Source: Rothia nasimurium (GTDB lineage: Bacteria > Actinomycetota > Actinomycetes > Actinomycetales > Micrococcaceae). From it: a stretch of DNA of 64,000 bases. Shown here in pieces: positions 33,696 through 42,805 of the stretch. The position numbers were made by a program, and so were the translations under genes. The stretch covers positions 310,001 through 374,000 of the forward strand of contig NZ_CP056080.1 in the NCBI RefSeq assembly GCF_014217215.1, read 5' to 3'. Position 1 is the stretch's first letter. Every line of letters starts with the position of its first letter. The notes under the pieces are model-generated. The model searched no databases. It was not told the origin of the DNA and saw only the letters and a list, made by a program, of their open reading frames with translations.

Positions 33696-33786
33696 GGTGA
33701 CGTGTCCGAGCGGCCGAAGGTGCAACACTCGAAATGTTGTGTACGGTAACCCCGTACCGAGGGTTCAAATCCCTCCGTCACCGCCA
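33696..33786 (+). tRNA. tRNA-Ser (CGA), with attL at its 3' end
   Basis: A class II tRNA with acceptor GGTGACG/CGTCACC, anticodon loop CTCGAAA (CGA), a long variable arm and an encoded CCA at 33784-33786. Bases 33763-33786 are the left copy of the element's 24-bp attachment repeat, so integration keeps the tRNA intact. Confidence 0.96.
33763..33786 (+). repeat. attL core repeat
   Basis: Left copy of the 24-bp direct repeat, forming the T-arm and acceptor end of tRNA-Ser(CGA). After two differing bases a further 11 bases (GATAAAAACCC) also match the right end. Confidence 0.9.
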
Positions 33787-33791
33787 GTGAT

Positions 33792-33836
33792 AAAAACCCG
33801 TTTCCCCTAGTGAGAGCTAGAGGGAGCGGGTTTTTT
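33792..33836 (+). terminator. Terminator after tRNA-Ser(CGA)
   Basis: AAAAACCCG with CGGGTTTTT, with CCCTA/TAGAGGG inside. It lies just inside the element, which therefore supplies the tRNA terminator. Confidence 0.75.
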
Positions 33837-33855
33837 CATGCCCAAAAGAGGCCCC

Positions 33856-33889
33856 GTGACATAAATATGACATAAATCTGCCCAGCAAG
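33856..33889 (+). repeat. Left integrase arm-type sites
   Basis: TGACATAAAT occurs at 33857-33866 and 33868-33877, followed by TGCCCAGCAAG at 33879-33889. The same motifs in the same order lie at 42482-42527 near the other end. Confidence 0.7.
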
Positions 33890-34746
33890 TCGGCATTAAG
33901 GCGGGCTTCGGGTGCCCCTGCTGCGGGCTGGTTTCGAGGTGCTGAGAGGGGCGGGCGGGTAGCGGTGCCAGCGAGCGCGGTTAGGGTATGCGCGGTGGGG
34001 CGCTAGGGGCAGCGTATAGGCGGCGGGTTAGTGCTGCTGGGCGTACGAGGGCAACGGACGGCGGTAGGGCCGGTGAGCTTGCTGCGGTGTCGAGTGGCGC
34101 GGGGGTATCTGGTGGCCGGGTGTGGTGTCGGCTTGGGGTTCGCCGGGTTGTGGGGTGTTCCCTTGGGGTGGTTGGCTCCCATGAGGTCAGGGGGCGCGGA
34201 CTGCTGGCCGGTGTGGGTGACTGGCTGCGGTGGTGCGTGTGGTCAGTGATTTATTGGGTTCGCCTGTATAGACCTCATAAATATGCGAACTTGGTCGAAT
34301 GTTTTTCAGGGTGCGGGGGGAGAGGATAGGAACGCCCCGGGTAGTGTCCACGGGCTACGGTGCTAGAGAATTTACCGCCCCCCCTGGGGGTGCTAGGCCC
34401 GGTGGTGGGTGGTGCGCTTGCTGGCTGTGCGAGTACAGCCCTAACGTCTGTGGAAAAAGGTCGGGGGGATATTTCCCTATACCGAGGGGAGTGACTGACC
34501 TTTGCCGGGGTGGGGGATAGCCCCCTACCCCCTTCTGTGCGCTGTGTATGCCGTTTTGCGGGGCTGGGATAGGTGGGGTGGCTCAATACCTGTGCGTGCT
34601 GTGTTCGGGGCTGTAGGCGTTAATTCTGGCTCATACGCGGCCTATGAGGGGTGACTGGTAGGGTGAGAGAGCGCCCGACCCCGAGATAGTTGCTGTATTT
34701 CGGAGCCGGGTGTCTTTTGTGCGTTCTGCCTGAGTGGTGTTGGGGG
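33890..34746. other. Gene-poor left end of the element
   Basis: About 860 bases without a convincing gene. Several GC-biased frames are open by chance (for example 33988-34329 on the plus strand) but show Arg/Gly/Val-rich composition, no Shine-Dalgarno and no recognisable domain. The G-rich plus strand (many GGGTG and GGTGG runs) is striking. I see no transposase remnants. Confidence 0.4.
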
Positions 34747-35316
34747 TTAGGCGCTGGTGTCGCCGTGTTGCTGCTGGCAGAAGATAGAACAGAACCGGCT
34801 AGGGCTATTCTCTGGTACGAGGTCAGCGCAGACCGGGCAGGTATCAAGGCGGGCAGCGGCCAGGGCAGCGAGCGCGGCGCGGTCATTATCGGTGAGTTGG
34901 ATAGCGGCGGTGATGGACTCTAGGGGCGTGGTGGTCAGGGTGTCGAGGGCTGCGCGTAGGGTGGCGGTGGTCTTATCCTGCTGCGGGGCCGGGTGCGGTT
35001 GGCTGTGGGCTAACACGGCTCTTACCTGCTCTGGGGTGGCGGGTGCGTGGTTAGGTGCGTAGGAGGGTTGGGCGCTCCATAAGAGGGCGGCGGCTTCGAG
35101 GTGCTGCGTACATTCTAGGTGGGCTGCTGCTGACTCCCACACATAAGCCTTGATATAAGCCAGAGCGTTTAGGGCGGTGCGGGCAGCTGCGGCATGGTAG
35201 GCGGGGTGGGCGCTGGTGGTGTACCCGGTTAGGGCGTTTGCGAGGTGGGCTAGTTCGGTGTCGGTCAGAGCCGGGGCCGGGGCTGGTGGGGTTTGCTGCT
35301 GGCTGGTGGTGCTCAT
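34747..35316 (-). CDS. Element protein with C-terminal zinc finger
   Basis: A 189-residue protein of unknown function. The N-terminal about 160 residues are Ala/Thr/Leu-rich helices. The C-terminus carries CPVCADLVPENSPSRFCSIF, followed by CQQQH: two CxxC-like knuckles that could bind zinc, of the type seen in small phage and plasmid proteins. It is the last gene of the leftward block. Codon use is typical of the element. It could bind nucleic acid, but nothing shows this directly. Confidence 0.55.
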   Translation of the reverse strand: MSTTSQQQTPPAPAPALTDTELAHLANALTGYTTSAHPAYHAAAARTALNALAYIKAYVWESAAAHLECTQHLEAAALLWSAQPSYAPNHAPATPEQVRAVLAHSQPHPAPQQDKTTATLRAALDTLTTTPLESITAAIQLTDNDRAALAALAAARLDTCPVCADLVPENSPSRFCSIFCQQQHGDTSA

Positions 35317-35379
35317 GGTTCCCAGATTAACAGGGGTGGGCGGTGTTGTGTTTCGGTCATGGTACCGGCTGGGCTAGGG

Positions 35380-35775
35380 CTATGAGCTATGGGGTATTGC
35401 CCATTCTTCGAGCTGCTGGGCTATCTGCTCAAAGGTCAGTGAGTGCTCTGCTACCTGGACAACGAACTGTGCTTGCTCGTTATCTTCAAGCACCTCTAGC
35501 GGGAGAATATCCCAGCCGTTCAGGTACATGAAAAGGACGGTGCAGGTGTAGGCGGTGCGTTTGTTGCCGTCCGTAAAAGGGTGATTCTGTACTAGGGCCT
35601 CTAAGAGGGCTGCGGCCTTGTTGAAGATACCGGGGTAAAGTTCGTGGCCTGCGTAGCTGGTGGCAGGGCGGGCTAGGGCGCTTTCTAATAGGTGCTCCCC
35701 GCCGGGTTTGAGGTGCTGGCCCGGTGCTAGGTGGGCGTGTACTGCTAGGGCTTCAGATAGGGCCACATATCGCAT
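35380..35775 (-). CDS. doc: Doc-type Fic-domain toxin
   Basis: A 131-residue protein of the Doc (death-on-curing) branch of the Fic family. The core motif HPFTDGNKRTA matches HxFx(D/N)GNKR. Doc of phage P1 phosphorylates EF-Tu and stops translation. The length is that of Doc. A very small ORF precedes it by 17 bases on the same strand and should be the antitoxin. In a mobile element such a pair stabilises maintenance or blocks competing phages. Confidence 0.88.
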   Translation of the reverse strand: MRYVALSEALAVHAHLAPGQHLKPGGEHLLESALARPATSYAGHELYPGIFNKAAALLEALVQNHPFTDGNKRTAYTCTVLFMYLNGWDILPLEVLEDNEQAQFVVQVAEHSLTFEQIAQQLEEWAIPHSS

Positions 35776-35792
35776 AGGGGCGGGCGGGGGTG

Positions 35793-35903
35793 CTACTGAG
35801 TGGCGAGGATAGCGTTTACACCCTCTAGGCGGTCGAGGACGGTTTCTAGCGCGTCTTGGAAGTCCTGGGTGGTGTCTGTGGTTTCGTGAGCGGTTGCGGT
35901 CAT
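35793..35903 (-). CDS. 36-residue putative antitoxin upstream of doc
   Basis: The ATG at 35903 has AAAGGAG at a good distance and gives a 36-residue acidic, helical peptide (DFQDALETVLDRLEGVNAILA). A longer frame to 36008 starts without a Shine-Dalgarno. Its place directly before doc suggests it neutralises the toxin. It is about half the length of Phd (73 residues) and lacks a visible Phd DNA-binding half, so if it is an antitoxin it may be the toxin-binding part only. Confidence 0.5.
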   Translation of the reverse strand: MTATAHETTDTTQDFQDALETVLDRLEGVNAILATQ

Positions 35904-36436
35904 GGTGGGGGCGCTCCTTTCGCTGTTGGTCTGCTGGTGTGGGTTAAGCCTAGCGTTAAGGGCGGGGTGGTGGCTAGGTGCTGGTGGTGTGTCTGCGAGC
36001 GCTCGCATACGGTTGGGGGTCTGCTGCTCTGCTCGTTGTGGTGGCCGTGGGTGCTGGTGTCTGGTCGAGGGGCTGGGATAGCTAGGGGCCGGTGTCTGTG
36101 CGTTCGATAAGCCGGGGTGTGCGGTGCTGGCCGGTAGGTGTGGGGCTGGTGGCGCTCTTCATCGTCTAAGGCTCTGCCGTTGGGGGAGTGGTGGCGCTGG
36201 TGCTAGCCGGTGGTTGTGGTAGCTGCTGTGGGGGTGCAATTCTTGCAGGTGCAGATTTTGCACCGGGTGCAATTTCTCGCCCCCCTCCCCCTTAGACCCC
36301 CGCCCCCTGCGCCGGTCAAGTACCGTCCGGCTCGTAGAGTAAGGCGCGGGGCAGGACGGCAACGGCACAATCACAGGCGGGGGTCTTGCTCTTTCATAGT
36401 GCTCTTTAAATACTTGCTCTTTCTCTTACTCTTTTG

Positions 36437-36577
36437 TGTGACAAATTGTCACATGTATGTGTGATAAATTCTCACATCTGGGCTGTTCTGGTGTGACATA
36501 TTGTCACATCTGAGGTGTGATAAATTGTCACTTTTGCCGATTCAGGGGGTGCAATTAGGTGTGATGAAAAGTCACTT
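36437..36577. repeat. Five TGTGA-type palindromes
   Basis: Copies at 36437-36454 (TGTGACAAATTGTCACAT), 36460-36477, 36492-36509, 36516-36533 and 36560-36577. The first and third are nearly perfect dyads. Start-to-start spacing is 23, 32, 24 and 44 bases. Confidence 0.85.
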
Positions 36578-36588
36578 TTGACCTGGTT

Positions 36589-36629
36589 TGACGTACGTCA
36601 GGGGTGACGTATACGTCAAAATGACGTAG
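36589..36629. repeat. TGACGT palindromes
   Basis: TGACGTACGTCA at 36589-36600 and TGACGTATACGTCA at 36605-36618 are perfect dyads; a half site TGACGTAG follows at 36622. Confidence 0.8.
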
Positions 36630-36634
36630 CGGCG

Positions 36635-36682
36635 TGACACTGTTGTCAGGGGGTGACAATCTGTCACCTGACACGGCTGTCA
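36635..36682. repeat. TGACA/TGTCA palindromes
   Basis: TGACACTGTTGTCA (36635-36648), TGACAATCTGTCA (36654-36666) and TGACACGGCTGTCA (36669-36682), about 15-19 bases apart. Confidence 0.8.
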
Positions 36683-36714
36683 TGTTCCCCCAACTGACTA
36701 GGCTATTTACTTCC

Positions 36715-36773
36715 TGCGAGGGGTCGCAGGTTGCGAGGGTCGCACCCCTGCGAGGGGGGTCGCATAGGTGCGA
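36715..36773. repeat. TGCGA/TCGCA palindromes
   Basis: TGCGAGGGGTCGCA (36715-36728), TGCGAGGGTCGCA (36732-36744) and TGCGAGGGGGGTCGCA (36749-36764), then a half site TGCGA at 36769. Confidence 0.8.
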
Positions 36774-36866
36774 GAGCCTAACCTCAACCTACGGCGGGGC
36801 GGGACTCAACAGGGCAGAGAAAAGCACCCCCTGAAACACGTTCAAGGGGTGCCCTACTCAACCACG

Positions 36867-37610
36867 CTAGGCCGATTCCTCATAACGAGCCAGTGCCGCT
36901 AACTGCCTAGCCCGTTCGTCCTCTAAGTCCTCAGACTCAAACCACGGGTGAGACTTCCCGTTATCCTGCTGGCTACCACTGACCAGAGCAACAGACTCTA
37001 CCGGCTTCGAGGTATCAGCTAGAGACAACGGGGGCAGCTGTTCAGAGGTGGTGTCTTCGAGGTCTGGCAGGTCGCCCGCTGGCTCTACCTGCTGGGCCGG
37101 TTCCTCCCACACCTGGGCGGGCGGCTGCGGCTCTGCTACATCGTTCAGGTGAGAGTGAGATACACGGTCACGCCGCACTGCCTTTCGCTTTCGTTTTGCA
37201 GATTCCTGGGCCTTGAACTCCCGAGCCAGCTGCTCGCCTACCACCGGGTCGCACTGTGCTATAAGCTCTTGTAAATTCAGATACGCTTTAGACGACTTCG
37301 AGACTGGCAGCTTTTCACTAGTGCGAAAGATACGCATATCGCCGCCGTGACGACTGATAAGCCCCCGCCACATAAGTTCGTGAAAGGCCCTATTTACGGT
37401 TTCACGGCTGCAACCTATCTCAGCTGCAATAGTGGCCTGTGAGTACCAGCTCGCCCCGCCGTGGTCTGTGTTGGTGGCTTCGGCAATGCGCACTAGAACC
37501 AGTTTCGCAACAGGGGTAAGCCCGTACACACCCATAGCAAGCACTACGCGATAGTGCGGACTATACGCGATTTCTTCCAAGGGCTTTTTCACTACATGTT
37601 CAGCTCTCAC
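36867..37610 (-). CDS. Winged-helix HTH protein, candidate replication initiator
   Basis: A 247-residue protein. Residues about 25-95 form an HTH_36-like domain (GLTPVAKLVLVRIAEATN, then SQATIAAEIGCSRETVNRAFHELMWRGLI), as found in plasmid and phage replication initiators and regulators. A basic helix follows (AKRKRKAVRRDR), then a long acidic, Pro/Gln-rich disordered tail. The GTG start at 37610 has only AAGGT upstream. Its 3' end lies 94 bases from the repeat array, which fits an initiator acting on a nearby origin. A pure transcription factor is the alternative. Confidence 0.6.
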   Translation of the reverse strand: MRAEHVVKKPLEEIAYSPHYRVVLAMGVYGLTPVAKLVLVRIAEATNTDHGGASWYSQATIAAEIGCSRETVNRAFHELMWRGLISRHGGDMRIFRTSEKLPVSKSSKAYLNLQELIAQCDPVVGEQLAREFKAQESAKRKRKAVRRDRVSHSHLNDVAEPQPPAQVWEEPAQQVEPAGDLPDLEDTTSEQLPPLSLADTSKPVESVALVSGSQQDNGKSHPWFESEDLEDERARQLAALARYEESA

Positions 37611-37859
37611 TACCTTTCACCTCTCTTTCCTGGTTACTCATTCGGTTGATTCATGGGCTAGTTTCCTTTCCGCTGGCCCGCCGGTGTCTCTGGTGGTTGC
37701 GCTCGAACGGGTGGGCTGCTGCTCTATTTGTTTCCAAGGGTGTGTTCGTTTCCCCGGGGTGGGGCGCTCGCTGGCTGGTGTGGCCGGTCAAGCGCCCCGG
37801 GGTATCGGGTGCATGGGGCCGGGGTTCCCTTGCCTGCGCCCGTGCTTATGGCGGGGTGG
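37611..37859. other. Gap before the Rep-like gene
   Basis: About 250 bases without a gene or clear hairpin. It should hold the promoter or leader of the Rep-like gene, which is the only large gap within the leftward block. Confidence 0.35.
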
Positions 37860-38585
37860 CTACTCTTCCCCGGCGAACAGGGTCAGCCAGTAGGCCGACA
37901 CTTTGCCGCTTGTCTCGTCACGTCCCGGCGCGATAAGACCAGCGTTTTCCAGTGACGCGTAATCGTCCTCAACCAACAGCGCATCTTCCAGGTTCTCCAC
38001 AGGGGTGTAATCGCACTCGTACTCCCGGGCTGAGAAGATAACGAGGTACTGGGCGAACAGGTGCGCGGCGACATCTGCCCAGTTCTCTGAGTCCGTTTTG
38101 ACGGCGTACTCTTCGATACGGTCGGCAGCTTCCAGCAGGTGAGCCGCTGCGTTCACCGGGCGGTTAAGGTCTACCATCTCGCCCATGTGGTCAATCACCT
38201 GATGAACCGCTTTCAGGTACTCGCTCACCGCCTCCCCGGTCAGGTACATAGGCGCATGGACGGCGTAGGCTGCGGTGACGGTGTTAGTGTCCCGGTCGTG
38301 GTTCAGGGTGTATTCCATGTTCTCTAGCACCTTGTCGGGGGCTAGGGTGTACTGCTCGTAGTAGTCGCTTGTCTCTGCTGCTGGGCTGGCTTCGAGGGTG
38401 CCCCGGTGGATATTCAGGGCCAGCGACTCAAAGAGGGGGCGCGGCACCTCTAGGGCTACCTGCTGCGGGATAAACACGCCGCCGTCTTGGTGAACCTCAT
38501 AAGCAAGGCGGCCGGTAGTGGGTTCGGTGCCAGCGAGCGCGTTTAGGCTATCGAGGGTGTTGGCGGTCATGGCTACGGTGGTCAT
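37860..38585 (-). CDS. Element protein sharing a C-terminal domain with its neighbour
   Basis: A protein of unknown function. I choose the ATG at 38585 (241 residues), because AAGGAG lies 8 bases before it; the longer frame to 38624 overlaps the neighbouring gene without a ribosome site. The C-terminal half (NAAAHLLEAADRI ... SLENAGLI ... SAYWLTLFAGE) resembles most of the 132-residue product encoded just upstream (NIAAHLAEVAAL ... TLEAVGLI ... TGYCLNWFESD). The protein is acidic and soluble. Confidence 0.65.
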   Translation of the reverse strand: MTTVAMTANTLDSLNALAGTEPTTGRLAYEVHQDGGVFIPQQVALEVPRPLFESLALNIHRGTLEASPAAETSDYYEQYTLAPDKVLENMEYTLNHDRDTNTVTAAYAVHAPMYLTGEAVSEYLKAVHQVIDHMGEMVDLNRPVNAAAHLLEAADRIEEYAVKTDSENWADVAAHLFAQYLVIFSAREYECDYTPVENLEDALLVEDDYASLENAGLIAPGRDETSGKVSAYWLTLFAGEE

Positions 38586-38598
38586 TTGGGGGACTCCT

Positions 38599-38997
38599 TT
38601 AGTTAATCGTTGGGTTGGGGTCAATGCGGTCGATTGCGAGATTCATTTCTTCAAGGCTGGTTGCGTCTGACTCGAACCAGTTAAGGCAGTAGCCCGTAAT
38701 GTCGCCGTCCTTGTCCTTAAAGATGTCGATTAGTCCCACAGCTTCGAGGGTGTCGTATTCAATGCCCATGCAACCATCGGGGGCAAACCGTGGGCTGACT
38801 GAGTGGGCTGCGTAATCGCGGTTGATTACCAACCCGGCGTAGATTTCAAAGGTGGCGAACAAGGGGTTTGCCCTAGCGTCTTCATCAATGTGAGGTGCCC
38901 CGTGGTCAAAGAGGGCGGCAACCTCAGCAAGATGGGCGGCGATATTGCGAGGGGTGCATTTGTAGCACTCGTAGGTATCTGCGGTGGTGGTGGTCAT
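38599..38997 (-). CDS. Element protein, short form of the shared domain
   Basis: A 132-residue acidic protein of unknown function. It corresponds to the C-terminal half of the 241-residue product encoded next to it. It starts with Thr-rich MTTTTADTYECYKCTP. Its ATG overlaps the stop of the 142-residue gene by one base (TAATG), so it is translationally coupled. Confidence 0.65.
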   Translation of the reverse strand: MTTTTADTYECYKCTPRNIAAHLAEVAALFDHGAPHIDEDARANPLFATFEIYAGLVINRDYAAHSVSPRFAPDGCMGIEYDTLEAVGLIDIFKDKDGDITGYCLNWFESDATSLEEMNLAIDRIDPNPTIN

Positions 38998-39425
38998 TAT
39001 TGGTTATCCTTTCGGGTGAGATGGGTGGGCAGGGTTCGGGGCGCTGGTGAGATGGGCAGCGCGTCCCCGTCCCCTTGTAAGGCTTCGAGATGGTCGAGGA
39101 TAACGCGGGCAGCGTCTAGGCGGTTGCGGGCCTCTTGCTCCATTCCTGGGCGTAGTGCCCAGACCCCTACCGGCCCGCCGTGGCGCTGTCTGCGGGTAGA
39201 GCGGGTGTAACCGGCATGGCGCATAAGAGGACGAACCACAGGGTCAGCAAATGCCCCGCCCCAACGCCGTGCATTGGTGGGTTCCCCAACCCTGTGCAGG
39301 TTGTCAGCAACACAGGTTCCGGTGCTGGTCAGGTCTTCAAGAATGGCTACCTGTACCCGCGCCCGCCATAGGGTCAGAGCGTCCGGCGCTACAGGCTTCG
39401 GGGGAGTGGCCGGTGTAATCGTCAT
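38997..39425 (-). CDS. Element protein of unknown function
   Basis: A 142-residue protein. Its middle part (WGGAFADPVVRPLMRHAGYTRSTRRQRHGGPVGVW) is basic and may bind nucleic acid. The C-terminal third is helical (RNRLDAARVILDHLEAL). No family is recognised. It follows the second HTH gene by 16 bases and is coupled to the next gene. Confidence 0.6.
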   Translation of the reverse strand: MTITPATPPKPVAPDALTLWRARVQVAILEDLTSTGTCVADNLHRVGEPTNARRWGGAFADPVVRPLMRHAGYTRSTRRQRHGGPVGVWALRPGMEQEARNRLDAARVILDHLEALQGDGDALPISPAPRTLPTHLTRKDNQ

Positions 39426-39441
39426 AGGCCGGGTTTCCTTT

Positions 39442-39726
39442 CTAGTAGTCGGCGTTAGCGGTAATGATGTGCTGGGCTAGAACCTGCTCCACATGCTCCC
39501 GGTCGTAAAGCACATGGCCGCCTATGCGGTGGTAGTCGAACATGTACTTTCGGTGTCGCCACACAGCCAGAGTGTTCACCGGTATACCGGTAAGTTCGTG
39601 CAGCTGGGCGGGGGAGTAAAACCGGGTGGTGTCTGCCCTGCGGGTGGGGCTTTTACGGCGGCGCTCCCTGCGGTTCGGTGCTGGCTCTGAAACATCTGGC
39701 AGGGCAGCAAGGGCGGTGGCGGTCAC
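39442..39726 (-). CDS. Excisionase/AlpA-like HTH protein
   Basis: A 94-residue protein. Its C-terminal 60 residues are an HTH_17 (MerR-like, excisionase family) domain: FYSPAQLHELTGIPVNTLAVWRHR, then the wing GGHVLYDREHVEQVL. The N-terminal 35 residues are basic and disordered (RRERRRKSPTRR). The GTG start overlaps the preceding stop (GTGA). In PICI-type islands an AlpA/Xis-like protein drives excision or activates the operon; here two such proteins are encoded. Confidence 0.75.
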   Translation of the reverse strand: MTATALAALPDVSEPAPNRRERRRKSPTRRADTTRFYSPAQLHELTGIPVNTLAVWRHRKYMFDYHRIGGHVLYDREHVEQVLAQHIITANADY

Positions 39727-40010
39727 TGGGCATCACCTCCTACAGGCCGGGCGGTAGGCAGGTAGGAATAACGCACCTGGCACAGTGGGCAAATCTCAAA
39801 CTGCGGGGCCAGCTTCCCGCCTGCGGTATAAGCGGTGGTGCCGGGCCGGTAATGGTGCTCCCAGGTTCCTCCCTGTGGCTGCTCACCGCACAGGGCCGGG
39901 GCTGTGGGTCGGTGGCTGTGGAAGTAGTGCAGCAAGGTCACACTCTGCGGCGGGGTAGGGGTGGTGCGTAGTTGGTTCAAATCTTCGGGGGTCAGCTCAT
40001 GCACGGTCAC
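39723..40010 (-). CDS. Small element protein with possible zinc knuckle
   Basis: A 95-residue protein of unknown function. The cysteines in ALCGEQ and EICPLCQVRY plus histidines (LLHYFHSH, WEHHY) could hold a metal. Its GTG start lies 3 bases after the preceding stop and its end overlaps the next gene by 4 bases. Confidence 0.6.
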   Translation of the reverse strand: MTVHELTPEDLNQLRTTPTPPQSVTLLHYFHSHRPTAPALCGEQPQGGTWEHHYRPGTTAYTAGGKLAPQFEICPLCQVRYSYLPTARPVGGDAQ

Positions 40011-40013
40011 GGG

Positions 40014-40328
40014 CTAGGCTCCTTTCTTCTGCGAGGTTTCGGGGGCATGGGCGCGGTCGCGGGTTACGGCGGCGTAGTAGGCGTTGATGGTGGCAACAAA
40101 TTCATGAAGCTGGTCGATGGTCATTCCGTCCCCTACTTCTGGTGTGTCCACGATGTAGCGCGGGTTATCCCCGTGGGTGCCGATGATGGTTTCACAGACG
40201 GTCGCCCCTCCCATGAAGAGGTGAGCGCCCCAATAGGCGACACTGTGCCCGTCTGTGTCGGGTCGGGGCTGGAAGATTGCCCCGGGTAGGTCGGGGTGGG
40301 TAATGGTAAGCTGGTTGGTGTCAGTCAT
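40014..40328 (-). CDS. Small element protein of unknown function
   Basis: A 104-residue acidic soluble protein (HPDLPGAIFQPRPD, TIDQLHEFVATINAYY). AAGGAGGA precedes the ATG by 9 bases, the strongest ribosome site in the block, so it may be highly made. No domain recognised. Confidence 0.6.
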   Translation of the reverse strand: MTDTNQLTITHPDLPGAIFQPRPDTDGHSVAYWGAHLFMGGATVCETIIGTHGDNPRYIVDTPEVGDGMTIDQLHEFVATINAYYAAVTRDRAHAPETSQKKGA

Positions 40329-40442
40329 GGGGGTTGTTCCTCCTTGGTTGATGGTTTGATTACCGCGCTCGCTTTGGTCGGCTGGTGCGCGGTCTTTTTT
40401 CTTCTGGCCCCGGCTGCTCTGTGAGTGGTCGGGGCAATTCTT

Positions 40443-40712
40443 TTAAGCGGTGGCCGTCTGCTGGGCGGCGGCTGCGCGGCGGGCGGTTTCTTTCTCTACC
40501 TGTTCGCGTTCCCATCGTTCTACGTCTTCGAGCCGGTAGCGGATATTCCGCCCTACCTTGAAAGACGGGGGCAAGTCGCCGCCTGTTGCTCGTAGACGGT
40601 AGAGGGCTTTGGGGGTGATTCCTAGGCGGGTGGCGGTGGCTTCGAGCGAGAGGTTTACACCGCTCTCTGTGGTTGCCGTGGTCACGTACTGAACCTCCTT
40701 AGTGGTTTTCAT
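40443..40712 (-). CDS. Excisionase family HTH protein, first gene of the leftward operon
   Basis: An 89-residue protein with an HTH_17 domain (LSLEATATRLGITPKALYRL, wing KVGRNIRYRLEDVERW) and a helical, Ala/Gln-rich tail. It is the first gene after the divergent promoter, the usual place for Xis or an Str-like regulator. It could bend DNA at the att sites or regulate the promoter. Confidence 0.78.
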   Translation of the reverse strand: MKTTKEVQYVTTATTESGVNLSLEATATRLGITPKALYRLRATGGDLPPSFKVGRNIRYRLEDVERWEREQVEKETARRAAAAQQTATA

Positions 40713-40742
40713 GGTTTCAGCCTAGTAGATTTCAATGAGTAC

Positions 40743-40778
40743 AAAATCAACTATGCAGCAACTATTTTTTAGTGTCAA
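40743..40778 (-). promoter_or_regulatory. Promoter of the leftward element operon
   Basis: On the minus strand TTGACA (40778-40773), a 17-base spacer and CATAGT (40755-40750) form a near-consensus sigma-A promoter about 35 bases before the excisionase-like gene. It overlaps the region between the repressor gene and the operon. The direct repeat TAGTTG (two copies, 10 bases apart) is a candidate repressor operator. Confidence 0.7.
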
Positions 40779-40827
40779 GTAGTTTTCAGCATTGCCGCTT
40801 ATTCTCTTTTCGGGTTATGGTTTAGGC

Positions 40828-41337
40828 ATGGCAGAGAAGAAAGCACCTAACCCCCAGGACGTTCGAATAGGGCAGAACCTTGCAAGGTTTCGCGGGGCTA
40901 TGTCCCAAGCTGAGTTAGCTAAGAAAATGCGCGATATGAATAAAGGTCATAAATGGTCGCAAACAACAGTGTGGACAGTTGAAAAGGGCGAACGACCCTT
41001 GAAGCTCGCTGAGGCGGATACCTTAGCCGAGATTCTGGGCATAAATTTAGATGCGCTACTGGAAGATGCTGTACAGCAAACGCGATATGAGCTGAGAAGG
41101 ATAAACCTAGAGGTCAAAGAGAATTTGGTGCGCGTAGCTGGTTCATTCATTGGTTCACTCATGTCACACAACGCCGCAAGGGACGTCTATGAAGTCCTTA
41201 GAAACAGCGGGGAGTTAACTTCAACTGAGGTTGAAGAGTTTGAAAAGGAGCTGGCTGAGCAAGAAAAGTACCTGAAAATTTTTGCGGAAGGACTGACATT
41301 CGAAAATATGGATAACCTGCTTGAACAGGAAGCCTAA
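40828..41337 (+). CDS. XRE-family repressor of the element
   Basis: A 169-residue protein from the ATG at 40828. The N-terminal HTH_3 domain (IGQNLARFRGAMSQAELAKK, TTVWTVEKGERPLKLAEADT) is that of phage-type repressors. A helical C-terminal region (about 85-169) could oligomerise or sense an inducer. No Shine-Dalgarno precedes the ATG, and a promoter-like TTGCCG-N17-TTATGG ends close to it, so the message may be leaderless. It is divergent from the excisionase operon and its stop is 2 bases before the integrase start. Confidence 0.82.
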   Translation: MAEKKAPNPQDVRIGQNLARFRGAMSQAELAKKMRDMNKGHKWSQTTVWTVEKGERPLKLAEADTLAEILGINLDALLEDAVQQTRYELRRINLEVKENLVRVAGSFIGSLMSHNAARDVYEVLRNSGELTSTEVEEFEKELAEQEKYLKIFAEGLTFENMDNLLEQEA

Positions 41338-41339
41338 CG

Positions 41340-42485
41340 ATGGCTTCGGTTCACAAGTACGAGGTTAAGAACGGGCGTAACGAGCGTGACCGCACCCGCT
41401 GGCGAGTCCAGTACAAGACCCCTACAGGCGAGTGGACACACAAACGCGGGTTCAAAACCAAGGCAGAAGCCCAACAGTTTATGAGCGGCGTTGAGGTCGC
41501 CGTCTCTCGAAACGAGTACGTGACCCCCGCAGACTCCCGCGCCACAGTCGGGCAGCTAGCCCCGGCATGGCTACACAAGAAAGAAACAAGTCTCAGGCCC
41601 TCTTCATACCGGCCCCTAGAAGCTGCATGGCGCAACCATGTCGCCCCCGTCTGGGGCAAACGCGCCCTGAAAACTATCCTCCCTACAGAAGTAGAAGCAT
41701 GGATAGCCGATTTACAGCGCGGCACCACAGCCAGCGGGCGCAAAGCGGTCGGCGCGTCTATGGTCATACGGTGCCATGAGATTCTAGCCGGGGTGCTAGA
41801 TGACGCGGTGAAAGACAAGCGCCTATTGGTAAACCCTGCCCGGGGCGTGAAGCTCCCCAAAAAGTCCAAGCGCTCCAACGTCTACCTGACCCATGAGCAG
41901 ATTGGGGCGCTCGCCGCTGCGTCCGGTCGCCCCGAGCTTATTTACACCCTGGCCTATACCGGCATTAGGTGGGGTGAAGCCACGGGGCTACAGGTGCAAG
42001 ATGTTGATTTCATGGCCGGGGTGCTGCGTATCTCTCGCAACCTGGTGGAGCTGACCCCGCACAAAGTCCAAGAGGGTGCCCCTAAGAGCGGTAAGGCGCG
42101 GTTGGTGCCGTTCCCGCCGTTCATTAGCGAGCATTTGCGGGCAGCGTGCCGGGGCAAGATTGGGGCCGCGCCGGTGTTCACCGAACCGGACGGCAGCCTG
42201 TTAAAGCGTCCGCAGTCTCAGAGCGGTTGGTTTATCAAGGCCGTTGCCGCTGCGGGTATCGAGAAGCACATTACCCCGCACGATTTACGGCACTCTGCCG
42301 CGTCTTTCGCGGTGGCTTCGGGTGCGCCGGTGAACCTGATTCAAAGAATGTTGGGCCATGAGTCGGCGGCTATGACCCTTGATGTGTACGCGGACTTGTT
42401 CGAGTCTCAGCTAGGCACGGTGTCGGCTGCTATGGACGCGGCTTATAGGGCGGCTGTAAGCGGTGGTGAGAGCGCTGGTTCGTGA
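41340..42485 (+). CDS. int: Tyrosine recombinase integrase
   Basis: A 381-residue site-specific recombinase. An N-terminal AP2-like arm-binding domain (ARWRVQYKTPTGEW-like, about 1-60) and a SAM-like core-binding domain (65-165) precede the catalytic domain. Catalytic residues are Arg in YTGIRWGEA, HDLRH, GHES and Tyr in LDVYADL. It inserts the element into tRNA-Ser(CGA). It is co-transcribed with the repressor and its 3' end overlaps the right arm-type repeats, 123 bases before attR. Confidence 0.95.
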   Translation: MASVHKYEVKNGRNERDRTRWRVQYKTPTGEWTHKRGFKTKAEAQQFMSGVEVAVSRNEYVTPADSRATVGQLAPAWLHKKETSLRPSSYRPLEAAWRNHVAPVWGKRALKTILPTEVEAWIADLQRGTTASGRKAVGASMVIRCHEILAGVLDDAVKDKRLLVNPARGVKLPKKSKRSNVYLTHEQIGALAAASGRPELIYTLAYTGIRWGEATGLQVQDVDFMAGVLRISRNLVELTPHKVQEGAPKSGKARLVPFPPFISEHLRAACRGKIGAAPVFTEPDGSLLKRPQSQSGWFIKAVAAAGIEKHITPHDLRHSAASFAVASGAPVNLIQRMLGHESAAMTLDVYADLFESQLGTVSAAMDAAYRAAVSGGESAGS

Positions 42486-42527
42486 CATAAGGCGTGACAT
42501 AAACGTGACATAAATTTGCCCAGCAAG
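42482..42527 (+). repeat. Right integrase arm-type sites
   Basis: GTGACATAA at 42482-42490, 42494-42502 and 42505-42513, followed by TGCCCAGCAAG at 42517-42527. The first copy overlaps the integrase stop codon. The set mirrors the left-end set in the same orientation. Confidence 0.72.
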
Positions 42528-42607
42528 CGGTAATTTTCCTATAACTCCATAAGCTGTTTTCCCTAGTCAGAACGGTTCTAGGGGGTGTGGTTAGGGGGTC
42601 TTTTAGA

Positions 42608-42631
42608 GTTCAAATCCCTCCGTCACCGCCA
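42608..42631 (+). repeat. attR core repeat
   Basis: Right copy of the 24-bp attachment repeat: T-arm and acceptor end of tRNA-Ser(CGA) including CCA, without the rest of a tRNA. Confidence 0.9.
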
Positions 42632-42682: not shown

Positions 42683-42805
42683 GCGCCCCGAAAACAGCCT
42701 ATCCGCAACATTTCCGCACATAAATACCACGTAAATGCGTATGACGGTGATACTCGTTTGCCCTCCACCTCTTTACGGGCTAGTGCCCAGTGGTAGCTTT
42801 TAACT

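Follow-up and report, generated by a model that had tools for sequence, protein, structure and literature searches.

A capsid-less island at tRNA-Ser in Rothia with a PICI-like layout, probably a cos-type phage satellite

Phage-inducible chromosomal islands (PICIs) of the Staphylococcus aureus pathogenicity island (SaPI) type, in the available part of the source used here for their definition (PMC6092414), carry int and a repressor gene reading one way, xis and rep reading the other way with the origin directly 3' of rep, and accessory genes at the far end, and they have no structural or lysis genes. Some PICIs use the cos site of their helper phage (PMC6092414). We found the same arrangement in an island of a 2.53-Mb Rothia genome. 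The stretch of DNA analysed, called the window, is 64 kb in length (G000:C1:310001-374000), and the island occupies window positions 33763-42631. Judging from sequence comparison, the island is probably a capsid-less, cos-type phage satellite of Rothia with a PICI-like layout. As read from its sequence, it is site-specifically integrated at tRNA-Ser, with int and XRE repressor genes, a divergent HTH-Rep operon and a predicted rep-iteron replicon. Transfer as a passenger of virus particles is probable, since the island brings genes for integration and replication but none for a virus shell, and a putative helper packaging signal is present in its relatives.

The island shares with PICIs the int and repressor genes, the divergent xis and replication module and the origin 3' of rep. 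As far as the available text of PMC6092414 goes, it differs in size (8.8 kb against about 15 kb in SaPI-type PICIs), in its one-sided iterons (two iteron sets flank an AT-rich region in PICIs), in having an O-like Rep only (a primase homologue accompanies the replication initiator in PICIs) and, compared with the SaPI type, in having no recognised terS, capsid-redirecting or interference gene. The PICI-like satellite proposed in an initial annotation of the window thus stands as to layout and is supported by the cos-like ends of relatives, while strict membership does not stand, and because of origin layout, primase and size we do not file the island as a PICI. The PICI definition (PMC6092414) also names genes exclusive to this class of element, attachment sites that prophages never use, and helper-dependent induction and interference. 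As to the first, Rep and orf254 lack matches in phage records and relatives in viral contigs, and Rep lacks matches in plasmid records; orf142 has weak relatives among phages. PICIs of the EcCICFT073 type are similar in having no terS, a helper cos sequence in the island and HTH_17/AlpA-like regulators, but they are transcribed in one direction, whereas the Rothia island is divergent and has an XRE repressor (PMC6092414, available part). The phage-inducible chromosomal minimalist islands (PICMIs) of Vibrionaceae, as described in the part of PMC10803314 at hand, have a similarly small gene set (int, AlpA, replication gene) without capsid-remodelling genes and are similar in scale to a 5.6-kb Rothia island described below. 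They differ in using the fis site and a DUF3987/DUF5906 primase, whereas the Rothia island has a tRNA site and an O-like Rep; one related island, that of G026, does encode a DUF5906/Prim-Pol protein. We read the island as working like a PICI or PICMI.

Candidate PICIs of Mycobacterium, whose definition requires both an integrase and a capsid gene (PMC10654092), and the Streptomyces satellites MulchRoom and MiniFlayer (PMC10690885) are also actinobacterial. According to the portions of these papers that were available, both groups have capsid genes, whereas no capsid family was found in the Rothia island. Own capsid and terminase genes, which mark capsid-forming PICIs and actinobacterial capsid satellites, were found among none of its 13 open reading frames (ORFs). 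The suggestion of a new actinobacterial satellite type would hold for one without capsid genes, and is otherwise anticipated by the PICI candidates of Mycobacterium (PMC10654092). No open-licence PubMed Central paper was found that joins Rothia with PICIs, or with a satellite and a cos site.

Related islands were found elsewhere in the genus, for which 35 genomes were compared. Six further int-XRE|HTH islands with attachment repeats are located at tRNA-Ser (two), tRNA-Leu, tRNA-Met (two) and tRNA-Lys, and have replication genes of three kinds; counting the window island, seven such islands at tRNA genes of four kinds support the satellite reading. The first island of G019 (Rothia nasimurium 64QC2CO; G019-1) has int and Rep 96% identical to those of the window, orf254 47% identical and a different repressor. 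The second G019 island, of about 14.5 kb, lies in tandem at the same tRNA-Ser (L055:1036-15575) with int 57% identical. The others are in G016 (about 9.5 kb, tRNA-Leu(CAG); int 72%, Rep 38% identical), G018 (7.6 kb, tRNA-Met; exact 36-bp repeat, AAA_25 protein), G026 (8.4 kb, tRNA-Met; 62-bp repeat, Prim-Pol/D5_N/DUF5906 protein) and G007 (5.6 kb, tRNA-Lys; 40-bp repeat, AAA_25 protein). The G018 island was found via orf189 and those of G026 and G007 via the non-coding module M3, so that the sharing of orf189 and M3 is partly due to selection. Remnants are present at tRNA-Arg (G028), tRNA-Leu (G015, G020) and tRNA-Ser (G020). In the second G019 island the majority of genes have no family. The repressor has been exchanged between islands with 96% identical int and Rep (L054:6830-7549 compared with the window gene in Table 1).

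A query of tRNA-Ser and its upstream sequence matched in 33 of the 35 genomes, and 30 loci were examined with a 1.5-kb flank. Seventeen are empty, with TetR, tRNA-Ser(CGA) and upp contiguous within the flank; G016, one of these, has a short match there to a small ORF of the island. Three are occupied or partly occupied (window, G019 and the remnant in G020), and at ten upp lies outside the flank, with occupancy undecided. Of 395 Micrococcaceae genomes, four (three of Rothia and one, with a partial match, of another genus) gave a Rep relative at E 1e-8 or better, and four, all of Rothia, gave the M1 region. The int-XRE-xis-Rep block recurs in other Rothia genomes. The initial annotation had named homologs confined to prophages or conjugative elements, packaging or transfer genes among the unknown genes and a lack of empty-site strains as observations that would overturn it; the homologous islands detected lie outside recognised prophages, no such genes were recognised, and there are empty sites.

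Synonymous divergence (dS) between window and G019 was 0.056-0.305 for eight island genes (median about 0.12) and 0.17-0.64 for six flanking chromosomal genes (median about 0.38), a range that overlaps that of the island; orf254, at 0.75, has been replaced. Between window and G016, orf254 (0.28), orf189 (0.29) and hth94 (0.48) fall below six chromosomal genes (0.87-1.21), and int (0.84), orf142, orf95 and rep do not. The pattern fits repeated transfer with module exchange. Relative to the R. nasimurium copy, the ratio of nonsynonymous to synonymous divergence (dN/dS) was 0.07-0.29 for int, rep, orf142, hth94, orf95, orf104 and orf189 and 0 for doc, with orf254 (0.62), orf132 (0.79) and a small ORF (2.65) as exceptions. 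This argues against a defective prophage remnant that has retained just int and the early region, which we hold very improbable. It is true that int and Rep belong to phage-type families, but the same compact organisation with both ends intact recurs at four kinds of tRNA, and Rep and orf254 have no match in phage records.

The island end far from int is non-coding, and a packaging signal was sought there. Rothia prophages contributed nine terminase loci to the comparison, and the searched sequence amounted to 1.32 Mb. A model of M3, built from window, G015 and G026, ranked at the top a site between the HNH and terminase genes of prophage G015:C78 (E 0.056), and this site resembles another island module, M4. 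A model of M4, built from three near-identical island ends (G019-1, G016 and G018), matched the gap between HNH and terS in three prophages (G015:C78, E 2.6e-8; G028, 3.8e-5; G012, 3e-4) with no match in the reversed control, and also the second G019 island (1.4e-4). The gene order in the three prophages is HNH (phrog_338), the gap, a short ORF and TerL (phrog_9, 1e-77 or better), and the gap between HNH and terS is the expected position of cos. Built from the three prophages only, a further model scored these four islands at 2.7e-11 to 2.5e-9, values that are not independent because the prophage sites had been found with the island model.

The match to the putative cos region is strong in four relatives but weak in the window island. 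The best site in the 945-nt distal non-coding end of the latter was M3. Its score was reached by 2 of 2000 shuffles with the prophage-only model, by 0 of 2000 with a seven-sequence model without the window, and by 1 of 300 for the whole island, and M3 scored 9.7 bits compared with 5.4 bits in the best of 56 other window pieces. M3 was present in 4 of the 35 genomes, always within such an element (reversed-pattern control, 0), and a further module, M3b, shows no difference across 37 nt among the elements of G019, G028 and G018. Neither M3 nor M3b gave a meaningful match in phage records (none and E 5), and M3 gave none in viral contigs. We regard M3 of the window as a candidate diverged cos-type site with a weak match.

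Several observations weigh against a cos-type satellite. The window site is not significant in the 1.32 Mb (E 3.7 with the prophage-only model, 0.71 with the larger model); with the prophage-only model the best reversed-sequence match (9.3 bits) exceeds that of the window (7.5 bits), and the larger model has no match in the G007 island end. The islands G019-1, G016 and G018 are not three independent cases, because they are near-identical at M4 and share the neighbouring orf189. The cos role of the prophage gap is based on position, the gene in the terS position has a weak terS match in one of the three prophages, and six of the nine prophage terminase loci have no M4 match. No TerL was found in the genome of the window by a phrog_2 search that detected all three candidate helpers elsewhere; therefore the helper would come from outside or be of an undetected kind.

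The weakness of the M3 match also speaks for packaging through M1 or by headful, with the likeness of M3 to the prophage cos being due to chance, a reading that we think unlikely. No other non-coding block of the island is conserved as well as M1, whose conservation is far above that of its flanks, and a model from four elements found the G007 island, a fifth carrier unrelated in replication type, at E 9.2e-7 (next match, E 4.4; none in the reversed control). However, M1 has no counterpart in 15 terminase-bearing loci (best E 0.94) or in phage records (best E 7), and viral contigs gave none or three 17-mer matches in unrelated contigs. Comparison of M1 with the ends of six actinophage records gave one 8/10 likeness to an end of phage HelDan, which is too weak. 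As RNA, the M1 region did not fold better than shuffled sequences did. A conserved-site match in G028 was considered as a helper prophage, but it belongs to a truncated element at tRNA-Arg(TCT).

The features of the island are collected in Table 1. An exact 24-mer occurs at both ends, embedded in a 40-nt repeat of 93% identity, and the distance from repeat to repeat is 8,845 bp; GC content is 58.7%, compared with 60.5% in the remaining window. The boundary by a 24-bp tRNA-Ser repeat claimed in the initial annotation was thus confirmed, tRNA-Ser being that with anticodon CGA, and the families and iterons found agree with its gene order of int and XRE, a divergent operon starting with the excisionase, Rep, origin array and Doc. 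GTGACATAA is confined within the window to both island ends. All seven islands have their own tandem arm-like repeat at both ends (partly by-eye reading), and the units differ: the window island has GTGACATAA, G019-1 has GTGATACTC and the second G019 island has GCAACATTT. By eye, the integrases of window and G019 differ in the alignment mostly in the N-terminal part. For the window integrase 57/381 aa matched, only at <60% identity, the best being 43% to Gordonia phage Finkle. Just beyond attR, at window positions 42695-42760, the arm repeat types of both G019 islands occur once each, and empty sites in L018, L019, L020, L021 and L022 have arm-repeat-like sequences about 100-170 bp after tRNA-Ser. 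We read such sequences at empty sites as probable scars of earlier occupants.

Table 1. Features of the island and its target site, in window coordinates.
Feature	Position	Strand	Evidence or remark
tRNA-Ser(CGA), integration target	33696..33786	+	ARAGORN; stays whole at attL
attL core, 24 nt	33763..33786	+	
Left arm-type repeat	33855..33889	+	two TGACATAAA units, 11 bp apart
Module M1, non-coding	34304..34401	+	63-nt core 34320-34382; common to five elements
Module M3, non-coding	34458..34525	+	candidate diverged cos site
Module M2, non-coding	34604..34635	+	adjoins orf189; also in G019-1, G016, G028 and G018 elements
orf189	34747..35316	-	no family; C-terminal CxxC/CxxxC pattern (by eye); present in most relatives
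Doc-type toxin (Fic/DOC)	35380..35775	-	phrog_577 4e-26
Small ORF adjoining doc, possible antitoxin	35793..36008	-	last ~30-37 residues alone match in G016, G020, G015
Origin, six palindromic 17-bp iterons (one degenerate)	36437..36668	.	AT-rich ~36401-36450
Rep, phage O-like initiator	36867..37610	-	HTH_36 2e-8; phrog_391 'replication initiation O-like' 9.5e-11
orf254	37860..38624	-	no family; C-terminal part aligns with orf132
orf132	38599..38997	-	no family
orf142	38997..39425	-	no family; weak relatives in Arthrobacter phages
hth94, second HTH_17-like protein	39442..39726	-	
orf95	39723..40010	-	no family
orf104	40014..40328	-	no family
xis89, HTH_17 excisionase/AlpA-like	40443..40712	-	starts divergent operon; HTH_17 4.5e-10; phrog_66 excisionase/regulator 1.2e-9
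XRE repressor	40828..41337	+	HTH_31 1.2e-5, just under Pfam cut-off; no peptidase family match
Tyrosine integrase	41340..42485	+	Phage_integrase 1.9e-21
Right arm-type repeats	42481..42527	+	three GTGACATAA units
attR core, 24 nt	42608..42631	+	

All 13 annotated ORFs were searched against Pfam and PHROGs and 10 of them against NCBIfam. No structural, lysis, terminase, relaxase or FtsK-type family was matched, consistent with the claimed absence of virion, lysis and conjugation genes, and most small ORFs have no family assignment. PADLOC gave sub-family Fic and HTH matches only, and Rfam the tRNA plus two sub-threshold matches. The predicted model of orf254 (predicted local distance difference test score 68.5) was not usable further. 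The small ORF next to doc persists in G016 without doc (L056:12119-12205), as an orphan antitoxin or with another function. orf189 and its flanking non-coding DNA are common to islands that differ in int and replication genes (e.g. L197:5102-5542).

Five palindromic 17-mers with at most 4 substitutions from TGTGACAAATTGTCACA, plus one weaker copy, lie 3' of rep, all on one side of the most AT-rich stretch; such 17-mers occur nowhere else in the window. TGTGACAAATTGTCACA iterons are found in the window and in the first G019 island, and the G016 island, with Rep 38% identical, has different repeats, TGTATCGGTTCGATACA, at the same position. Since rep and iterons change together and the position is kept, the origin is tied to the local rep. 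Two 25-mers of the window repeat zone (36715-36739) recur in contig 2 of G019 outside the islands (L202:3701-3764).

Rep, iterons and Doc are plasmid-like, and M1 and M3 are conserved putative cis sites, which would suit an integrated plasmid-like element conjugated in trans; M1 or M3 would then be its transfer origin instead of a packaging site, and Doc its addiction module. We consider this improbable: no relaxase, FtsK/TraB or coupling family was recognised in the island ORFs, and a comparison of Rep, the M1-region DNA and the island DNA with 72,556 plasmid records yielded nothing meaningful (one match, E 0.8). Nor would conjugation account for the resemblance to prophage HNH-terS gaps.

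A capsid-less satellite of this kind would be kept silent by XRE until a helper phage relieves repression. The HTH_17 protein and Int would then excise a circle, Rep would copy it from the iterons, and the helper terminase would cut the cos site in the end opposite int and pack the island into helper particles. In a new cell, Int would then integrate the island at tRNA-Ser; Doc may have a part in maintenance. More tentatively, Rothia could host diverse satellites without capsids that freely exchange their parts for integration, repression and replication and whose short non-coding ends are swappable cos-like cassettes (M1, M3, M3b and M4), each for a different helper phage, so that the cassette and not the genes would set helper range. 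If the satellite reading is true, a capsid-gene-free actinobacterial phage satellite family exists in Rothia, a commensal genus common in animals and the mouth, with three candidate helper prophage types, and an island of unknown transfer becomes a directly testable packaging claim. Comparison of non-coding ends would then pair satellites with helpers where proteins are uninformative.

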